From Acidisphaera sp. (lineage in GTDB: Bacteria; Pseudomonadota; Alphaproteobacteria; Acetobacterales; Acetobacteraceae): a stretch of 36,077 nt of DNA. Position numbers and translations under genes: made by a program. The first letter of the stretch is position 1; every line of letters begins with the position of its first letter. The stretch lies in the NCBI GenBank assembly GCA_019240395.1, contig JAFAYM010000274.1:1-36077 (forward strand), given 5' to 3'. Below are positions 23,537 through 25,321 of this stretch, one piece after another. The notes beneath the pieces are model-generated. The model made no database searches. It saw nothing but the letters and a program-made list of their open reading frames with translations, and was not told where the DNA came from.

Positions 23537-24451
23537 TCAGGCGGCGTACGAGCCGAACAAGCCGTTCGGCCGGAAATAGAGCACGGCGATCAGCATGAAA
23601 AAAGCGACGGCATCGCTCAGGGAAGAGGAGATGTATCCCGTCACCAGCGCCTCCAGCACGCCGAGCCCGAGCGCCACCGCCATCACGCCCTCGAAATAGC
23701 GGTTGCCCGCCACCAGCATGACGACGAAGGATTTCAGGCCGTAGAGCAGGCCGACGAAAGCGGAGGCGCTGCCGTAGAGCGCACCAACGGAAACCGCGGC
23801 GACCCCCGCCATCATCGAGGCCAGCACGACGGTGATGCGGGAGATGACGTCAACGTTCACCCCGAAGGCGGCGGCGACGTCCGGCCGTTCGGCGATGGCG
23901 CGTGTCGCCCGGCCGTAGCGGGTGGCGCGGACGTAGTAGCTGGCGAGCGCGAGCACCAGCAGGCTGATGGCGAAATTCGCGAGTTGCCGCTCGCCGATGC
24001 GGATGCCGCCGAGGCCGAGCGCCGCCTGGCCCAGCAGCGCGGGGTAGGGCACGGGATCGGGGCCCTTGAGCAGCGCCATGCCGTTCTCCAGCATGATGGC
24101 GACGCCGAGCGTGGCGATCAGCGTCATCAGCACGTCGCGTCCGCGCAGCGGGCGGATGACCAGCCGCTCCAGCACCAGTCCGGCAACCCCGGCGCCGAGC
24201 GCGCCGAGCACCAGGACGACGACGAAACTATGCGAGACGTAGGTGCCCGCGGCCAGCCCGGCGAACATTCCGAGCATGAAAATGTCGGGATGGGCGAAGT
24301 TGATCACCCGCAGCACGGTGAACACCATGGAAAACCCGACCGCCACCACGGCGTAGGTGCTGCCGATGATCAGCCCGTTGACGACCTGCTGGAGAAGCAG
24401 CAGCACGCTAGGATCCGGAATCGGAGAAGGAGGCGACGGCATCGTCGTCAT
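23537..24451 (-). CDS. livH: ABC transporter permease, LivH-like
   Basis: The 304-residue integral membrane protein matches LivH, the other permease of Liv-type importers. Family segments are VVNGLIIGSTYAVVAVGFSM followed by VFTVLRVINFAHPDIFMLG, the coupling loop RATRAIAERPDVAAAFGVNV, and the C-terminal AVLYFRPNGLFG. About eight hydrophobic helices can be traced. The ATG at 24451, and an alternative at 24442, have no Shine-Dalgarno site, and the first lies inside a repeat element with terminal inverted repeats. A GTG at about codon 16 (PSVLLLL) is another possible start. The protein core is intact. Confidence 0.92.
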   Translation of the reverse strand: MTTMPSPPSPIPDPSVLLLLQQVVNGLIIGSTYAVVAVGFSMVFTVLRVINFAHPDIFMLGMFAGLAAGTYVSHSFVVVLVLGALGAGVAGLVLERLVIRPLRGRDVLMTLIATLGVAIMLENGMALLKGPDPVPYPALLGQAALGLGGIRIGERQLANFAISLLVLALASYYVRATRYGRATRAIAERPDVAAAFGVNVDVISRITVVLASMMAGVAAVSVGALYGSASAFVGLLYGLKSFVVMLVAGNRYFEGVMAVALGLGVLEALVTGYISSSLSDAVAFFMLIAVLYFRPNGLFGSYAA

Positions 24452-24543
24452 CGCGACGCGCGCAGCGACGTGGCGATCCAGGGCCGCCGTACAGTGCCAA
24501 GCCCCTGGATCGCCGCGCCGCCGAAGAGCGGCTCGCGATGACG
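24446..24543. repeat. MITE/REP-like element with terminal inverted repeats
   Basis: The ends CGTCATCGCGA (24446-24456) and TCGCGATGACG (24533-24543) are perfect 11-base inverted repeats. Inside, GGCGATCCAGGG (24472-24483) and CCCTGGATCGCC (24503-24514) form a second perfect 12-base pair. The sequence resembles a dispersed palindromic element seen between genes in many alphaproteobacteria, from memory of its CGTCAT-GCGA ends and GATCCAGG core. It fills most of the livF-livH gap and contains the apparent start codon of livH. It encodes nothing. Confidence 0.8.
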
Positions 24544-24598
24544 GGACAGCCGCCGCGACTCACGGACCAGACATAACGGGTGCTAGGGCCCTTCATAA

Positions 24599-25321
24599 TC
24601 ATGCCCGGCCCCCCAGGAAGATCTCCTTGACGCTGTCCTTCGCGGCGATCTCGGCGGCGACGCCGCTTTCGACGACGCGCCCGGTTTCCAGCAGATAGGC
24701 CCAGTGCGCCAGGGCCAGCGCCTGTCGCGCATTCTGCTCGACCATGAGCACGCTGATGCCCATTGCGTTGATCTCGCGCACCAGGGCGAAGACATCACGC
24801 ACCACGAAGGGCGCGAGGCCGAGCGAGGGTTCGTCCATCAGCAGCAGCCGCGGGCCGGAGACCAGGGCCCGGGCGATCGCCACCATCTGCTGCTCGCCAC
24901 CGCTGAGCGATCCGGCCAGCTGGTTGCGGCGCTCCTGCAGCCGGGGGAAGCGCTCGAACATCTCGCCGATGTGCCGCTCGGCGCGGGCCGTATCGCGATC
25001 GGCGAAGGTGCCGAGGCGAAGATTTTCGAGCACGGTCAGCGTGCCCCAGAGCTGGCGGCCCTCGGGCACCCAGGCAATGCCGAGGCGGTGCACCTGGTGC
25101 GGGCGCAGCCGCCGCAGGTCGTGCGCGCCGTCGAAGCGGATCGCGCCGGCCTGCGCCCGCTGCAGCCCGAGGATGGCCTTGATGATCGTGCTCTTGCCGG
25201 CGCCGTTGGCGCCGAGGATGACGCGGATCTCGCCGCCGAAGATCTCGATGGAGGCACCGGAGACCGCGGGAACCGCGCCGTAGCGGACGCTGAGATCGGT
25301 GACCTCCAGGAGCGGCGTCAT
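24599..25321 (-). CDS. livF: ABC transporter ATPase, LivF-like
   Basis: The 240-residue ATPase has Walker A GANGAGKST, the LivF-specific segment GIAWVPEGRQLWGTLTVLENL, signature SLSGGEQQMVAIARAL, Walker B LLLMDEPSLGLAP and the His-switch position EQNARQALALA, where LivF proteins have Gln-Asn. It pairs with LivG beneath the LivHM permeases to power uptake. Its ATG overlaps the stop of the upstream livG as ATGA. A spacer with a repeat element separates it from livH. Confidence 0.94.
   Translation of the reverse strand: MTPLLEVTDLSVRYGAVPAVSGASIEIFGGEIRVILGANGAGKSTIIKAILGLQRAQAGAIRFDGAHDLRRLRPHQVHRLGIAWVPEGRQLWGTLTVLENLRLGTFADRDTARAERHIGEMFERFPRLQERRNQLAGSLSGGEQQMVAIARALVSGPRLLLMDEPSLGLAPFVVRDVFALVREINAMGISVLMVEQNARQALALAHWAYLLETGRVVESGVAAEIAAKDSVKEIFLGGRA

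Follow-up and report, generated by a model that had tools for sequence, protein, structure and literature searches.

The window, i.e., the 36,077-nucleotide stretch of Acidisphaera sp. DNA that we analyzed, carries livF and livH on its minus strand and, between these two genes, an inverted-repeat element, as a preliminary description made from the sequence had stated. The features of the locus are as follows.

23537 to 24451, minus strand: livH open reading frame, branched-chain amino acid permease (Pfam PF02653, BPD_transp_2, 1.2e-32), the homologous part running from 24406 down
24404 to 24406, minus strand: GTG, likely native start of livH, matching the ATG that begins MDLFLQQ in both orthologues
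24449 to 24451, minus strand: in-frame ATG within the element, start of the longest mechanical open reading frame, probably not the livH start (open reading frame listing, orthologue comparison)
24446 to 24481, plus strand: left CGTC-tagged monomer with CGTC head, AT-first stem and CCAG tail (read from the sequence and aligned with 40 other copies in the genome)
24482 to 24504, no strand: spacer separating both monomers, its length and sequence varying across species
24505 to 24543, minus strand: right CGTC-tagged monomer, inverted, with the CGTC end outside, giving a head-to-head dimer (sequence and copy alignment)
24420 to 24570, no strand: approximate full inserted unit with flanks common to other copies, ~150 bp, ends not sharp (copy matches, alignment and gap size)
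24599 to 25321, minus strand: livF, ABC transporter ATPase, the upstream gene, with its stop codon at 24599 to 24601 (Pfam PF00005, ABC_tran, 2.9e-30)

The start of livH

Among 385 genomes of the class that we searched (its own included), LivH was matched at E <= 1e-80 in two others, G046 and G448, which come from other families of the class and whose LivH proteins are each 72% identical to that of the window. Both proteins begin MDLFLQQ, which aligns with residues 16 to 22 (VLLLLQQ) of the longest livH frame, the first of these residues being encoded by the GTG at 24404 to 24406. This GTG lies 39 nt outside the 98-base element and is preceded by a weak GGAT only; a second ATG in frame with livH is located at 24440 to 24442, just outside the element. 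Judging from the orthologues, we consider it very likely that livH starts at the GTG. The alternative put forward in the preliminary description, i.e., that livH takes its start codon from the CGTCAT end of the element and that its expression was altered, is highly improbable: the longest frame does begin at the in-element ATG, and the 15 codons from there to the GTG are open, but these codons have no counterpart in either orthologue, the orthologue matches begin only at residues 15 to 18 of that frame, and no Shine-Dalgarno-like sequence was seen in the 20 bases before this ATG (nor before the ATG at 24440 to 24442, in agreement with what that description had said of both).

The livF-livH gap measures 192 nt here versus 27 nt (G046) and 44 nt (G448), and the element is absent from the gap of both of these orthologous operons. 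The suggestion that the insertion replaced the native start region of livH is not supported: relatives lacking the element start livH at the codon that matches the GTG, which comes close to the refuting observation named in the preliminary description. The comparison is consistent with insertion of the element into a short livF-livH gap as a single event. Because an intact end of the element carries an outward ATGACG, programs that call open reading frames may extend genes into such repeats; the same annotation problem has been noted for REPs at apparent amino termini (PMC3733652).

A pair of CGTC-tagged hairpins and its copies

The inverted repeats of the 98-base element proved exact to the base as first described. 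More specifically, CGTCATCGCGA (24446 to 24456) and TCGCGATGACG (24533 to 24543) are exact reverse complements, giving perfect 11-base ends, and so are GGCGATCCAGGG (24472 to 24483) and CCCTGGATCGCC (24503 to 24514), giving a perfect inner 12-base pair, whose arms are also part of a 19-nt, 89% pair in the inverted-repeat listing of the window. Each arm reads CGTC-ATCGC...GCGAT-CCAG with CGTC outermost; the conserved frame has an internal part (GCGAT...CCAG) besides its terminal one. The element is beyond chance, because none of 200 shuffles reached the same folding stability, whichever strand was taken (z -6.55 and -6.70), and because it recurs ~40 times in the genome. The whole 98-nt copy in the window also folds as a single long hairpin, and therefore its arms need not act separately.

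We obtained 78 match rows upon searching the Acidisphaera genome; the element being palindromic, many of them represent one place read on both strands. Upon local re-search of the retrieved stretches, we found 40 near-full-length copies besides that of the window, plus three short pieces; two of the 41 aligned copies are identical and located at contig ends (C250 start and C66 end), and therefore may be one copy, hence a count of 40 to 41, which is a lower bound, as 40 of 214 candidates were scored in the first genome search. In the genome, the exact 12-base end is present 75 times, and 81 occurrences of the two-ended monomer pattern were counted. All 41 aligned copies have both arms with their heads outside, and 39 of them carry CGTC as the left head. 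The copies are dispersed as well as arranged in short arrays (nine copies on C54, four on C250, three on C101, and three on C291) with a period of ~125 to 200 bp.

The bounds of the element were drawn too narrowly in the preliminary description, even though its repeats stood. Four clustered copies on C250 match window positions 24423 to 24544 at 91 to 94%, and the copies on C54 extend the match rightwards to 24568 at 85 to 89%. Since other copies share these flanks, leftwards to ~24423 and rightwards to ~24568, the moved or duplicated unit is probably ~150 bp rather than 98 bases long, which fits the 148- to 165-nt excess of the livF-livH gap over the two orthologues.

The nine tandem copies on C54 (L029, 1140 to 2860), mostly with a ~200-bp period, are located between two BPD_transp_2 permease genes, which we take to be livH- and livM-like. 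A second liv-type operon of this genome thus seems to carry the repeat.

Relation to known repeats and spread across species

It is highly probable that the element is a non-autonomous, REP-type, head-to-head dimer of CGTC...CCA hairpin monomers. Several of its traits are those given for the CGTC-tagged REP super-family in the 2013 survey (Di Nocera et al. 2013, PMC3733652): a CGTC outer end located outside the stem (here at 24446 to 24449 and, on the minus strand, at 24543 to 24540), AT at the first stem positions and an unpaired CCA tail (CGTC-AT...AT-CCAG in both arms here), head-to-head dimers as the predominant form, a position between co-oriented genes, and occurrence mostly in Alphaproteobacteria with members elsewhere. 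The super-family is described there as having no association with transposase genes, and apparently no dedicated transposase; likewise, the Acidisphaera genome has no PF01797 match. The published families CGTC-1 to CGTC-4 have stems of 8 to 9 bp and loops of 4 to 5 nt (Table 1 of that survey), whereas the present element has a 5-bp outer stem (ATCGC...GCGAT) and a separate, exchangeable inner part, with 28 nt (left) and 31 nt (right) separating head and tail. Because head, tail and dimer form match but the published stem and loop sizes do not, the element is a variant of the super-family and not a member of CGTC-1 to CGTC-4, a placement made by stem and loop sizes and description. Acetobacteraceae, the family of Acidisphaera, are said in the same survey to be without CGTC repeats, in contrast to what we observed; Neisseria CGTC-1 is equated there with dRS3.

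Two other kinds of repeat resemble the element in part, again as described in PMC3733652. REPINs and the GTAG REPs mobilized by RAYT are likewise inverted pairs of short hairpins, non-autonomous and present in many copies, but they carry a GTAG tag in place of CGTC, and a Y1_Tnp (PF01797) match is absent from the Acidisphaera genome. Bacterial MITEs such as ERIC and NEMIS share size, terminal inverted repeats and lack of coding capacity with the element; in contrast to these, no parent insertion sequence was found for the element, and its arms are conserved and covary as separate hairpins. The papers listed by literature searches with the element sequence were, judged by title, unrelated, and a Methylobacterium paper listed by a general MITE search describes other elements.

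At least 112 stretches of named genomes contain a 34-base pattern of the left arm. Its hosts include, among others, Roseiarcus, Inquilinus, Sphingomonas and Alsobacter in the Alphaproteobacteria and Thiobacillus, Limnohabitans and Azonexus in the Betaproteobacteria, as well as Gammaproteobacteria and two records named Opitutus and Opitutaceae (Verrucomicrobiota), the Opitutus match having no right arm. Many of these hosts are metagenome bins, and therefore single assignments may be contamination. In genome G001, of the same genus as the window's genome, stretch L048 is identical to part of L143, which comes from a MAG filed as Acidisphaera. In Alsobacter soli (L131, 4806 to 5498), monomers of the same type form a tandem array with a spacing of ~94 bp and multiples of it.

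The right arm was present for 74 of the 118 left-arm pattern matches in named genomes and missing by that test for 44; the search pattern fixed the left arms, and the right arms could vary at the counted pair. The first variable stem pair was complementary in 95 of 130 distinct monomers outside the search pattern, versus a shuffle mean of 44 and a maximum of 59. In the 74 dimers with a right arm free at that pair, the right arm matched itself in 72, and 58 had a base that mismatches the left arm. Since the bases of one arm vary together but not with those of the other arm, what is conserved as a unit is the hairpin monomer, and each arm evolves as its own hairpin across species. By loop, 36 of the 74 right arms have GCGNAGC, 19 have another GNA loop with a stem of at least 3 bp, and 19 have neither (raw counts, no control). 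The d(GCGNAGC) minihairpin is a very stable DNA structure.

Small GIY-YIG nucleases beside the repeat

An all-against-all comparison of proteins encoded near elements (L029 to L180) gave, among the 25 largest clusters, one useful lead, i.e., a pair of GIY-YIG proteins from the Acidisphaera genome (L047) and from G018 (L063). The gene in the former (C185, 30147 to 30443; L216 / L047) matches PF01541 with 49.1 bits (cut-off 22.6; 7.1e-13), and GCGAG-type monomers lie 12, 16 and 83 bp from it, the last of which (GTCATCGCGAGCCGCC..GGCGGCGTGGCGATCC) is closely similar to the right monomer of the element. Two further small GIY-YIG matches in this genome, L247 (C250, 18811) and L255 (C185, 16954), are KWRR types with GTCATTCCCGC...GCGGGAATCC monomers. 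PF01541 matches were found by family search in 16 of 18 element-bearing genomes, including large open reading frames that look like UvrC; several of the small GIY-YIG genes in these 18 genomes have CGTC-type monomers, with stem types that differ, on their flanks, and others have none there.

We then searched the class genomes with the L047 protein by tblastn, and 123 of 385 had a match at 1e-10. For the 150 loci that comprise the matches listed, weaker ones being outside this set, monomers were defined by a CGTC-type head, a tail and three complementary stem pairs. Monomers numbered 139 at up to 150 bp from the match (3.11/kb), 35 at 150 to 300 bp (0.80/kb), 12 at 300 to 600 bp (0.14/kb) and 23 over 600 to 2100 bp (0.06/kb), and a reversed-motif control gave 0 in every distance bin. 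A monomer within 300 bp was present at 79 of these 150 loci, on both sides in 45, and missing at 71.

The nuclease of the Acidisphaera gene on C185 (30147 to 30443) differs from other small GIY-YIG proteins in that GSR replaces an aromatic motif such as KWRR or HWSR, and it pairs with the GCGAG repeat type. In 18 proteins of the listed loci, the position that is aromatic in most holds G or S, and the next one S or N (GGSR, AGSR, GSSR, AGNR). GCGAG-type monomers adjoin 14 of 15 GSR-type loci with a near monomer versus 1 of 64 loci of other types (Fisher 1.8e-13), a value that overstates the independent evidence because only one to two independent contrasts underlie the match, so that common descent explains much of it. 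The GSR exception (L220) has a CACGAG...GTG monomer, i.e., the same frame with both partners of one pair changed, and the exception among the other types (L283) has its GCGAG monomer 256 bp away, its nearest monomer being of another type. The tree, Mantel and independent-pairs results refer to a set of 148 loci, two loci with an internal stop having been left out. In the protein tree, a single well supported branch of 21 rows holds 16 of the 18 GSR rows, and the other two form a pair outside it. Distances between proteins follow those between monomers over 77 loci (Mantel r 0.33) and also within the 62 W/Y types alone (r 0.24), with 0 of 2000 permutations as high in either case.

The association was also seen at the level of genomes, taken as independent: GCGAG monomers were present in 14 of 16 genomes with a listed GSR nuclease versus 39 of 369 others, and at least 20 of them in 10 of 16 versus 10 of 369. 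The 8-Mb genome G753 has 241 GCGAG-type monomers, and its listed GIY-YIG match (L354) is non-GSR and without a monomer within 300 bp. G003, a 91% complete bin, has the element at no fewer than 14 places (26 match rows) and no PF01541 match, not even UvrC; the missing UvrC match also points to sequence missing from that bin.

These observations make a GIY-YIG nuclease of the GSR subtype a tentative candidate for the mover of the element family. A dimer unit of ~150 bp would have been inserted into the short livF-livH gap, and the nuclease would be the product of a gene located at another site of this genome, with monomers on its own flanks. It may recognize the hairpin when extruded as a single strand and cut beside it, upon which repair or recombination would copy the hairpin to new or neighboring sites. 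At its site in the window, the element is probably transcribed as a hairpin together with the liv operon. Ssn nucleases are a small family of GIY-YIG proteins that act as site-specific single-strand DNA endonucleases; one of them is from Neisseria meningitidis and cuts a genomic repeat. They are similar in size to the present nuclease and share with it the Pfam domain PF01541, and a report on them may cover part of a link between GIY-YIG proteins and REPs. Among the papers listed by our literature searches, in a collection with few subscription papers, we recognized no published link between GIY-YIG proteins and REPs, and such a link may be in print. GIY-YIG is not mentioned in PMC3733652, PMC12306157 or PMC5082802.

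A rather unlikely alternative, though the strongest of those considered, is that the repeats spread without a dedicated enzyme, through slippage during replication, recombination and horizontal transfer, and are retained because they form RNA hairpins that serve as terminators or mRNA stabilizers in operons, the GIY-YIG genes being passengers. The several tandem arrays, including that of nine copies between the permease genes of the apparent other liv operon, agree with it, as do the strong folds and the 71 listed nuclease loci that have no nearby monomer; an action of REPs at the RNA level has also been hypothesized (PMC3733652). Against this stand the dispersed single copies, some of which have common flanks, and the adjacency of nuclease genes and monomers, ~50-fold above background and matched by subtype. 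Rfam, moreover, gave no match at gathering score in two arrays and only three sub-threshold matches, all around the window site.

It is less probable still that the element is a classical MITE, i.e., that it arose from an insertion sequence by deletion and is moved in trans by a DDE transposase recognizing CGTCATCGCGA ends. Such an origin would suit the perfect 11-bp terminal inverted repeats and the ~40 copies, but no target duplication is visible in the window sequence at 24446/24543 (the ends of the unit are not sharp, and no near relative with an empty site was found), and the GCGAT...CCAG frame is not confined to the termini. Among the 75 exact CGTCATCGCGAG ends in the genome, no neighboring pair faces each other at a width beyond that of the short element itself. 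Allowing at most one substitution per end, the 153 loci L029 to L181 hold four neighboring facing pairs 202 to 739 bp apart, with a longest open frame of 213 aa, and no transposase was recognized by eye in the 25 largest clusters of open reading frames near elements (L029 to L180). The label "MITE-like" in the preliminary description holds for a non-coding, multi-copy, inverted-repeat insertion, but MITE is not the best-fitting name: these searches revealed no longer element that shares the ends and carries a transposase gene, and the arms behave as separate hairpins across species, as in REP dimers.

Two other candidates were rejected. An autonomous insertion sequence with the ends of the element was found neither by exact ends in the genome nor by near-exact ends in L029 to L181; the 739-bp interval of Azonexus hydrophilus (L090, 278 to 1017), located between two facing element-type ends, has the 213-aa open frame. 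RAYT was discarded as mobilizer given 0 PF01797 matches in the Acidisphaera genome, which is one of 12 without a match among the 18 element-bearing genomes; the other six have a PF01797 (Y1_Tnp) match, over the cut-off in five.

On balance, we lean toward the reading in which a CGTC-REP dimer was inserted into the liv gap, livH starts at its GTG and a GSR nuclease spreads the family, its recognition, cutting and mobilization of the repeat being predicted from sequence. Quite possibly, small GIY-YIG nucleases are the missing mobilizing, or copy-controlling, enzymes of CGTC-tagged REPs and have a readable specificity code; if so, GSR, in place of KWRR or HWSR, would go with GCGAG hairpins like those of the window, and other motifs with other stems. 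The repeat type found here occurs in many Alphaproteobacteria and other groups, and the adjacency and the subtype match together give a concrete, cheaply testable candidate pair of enzyme and target for CGTC repeats.
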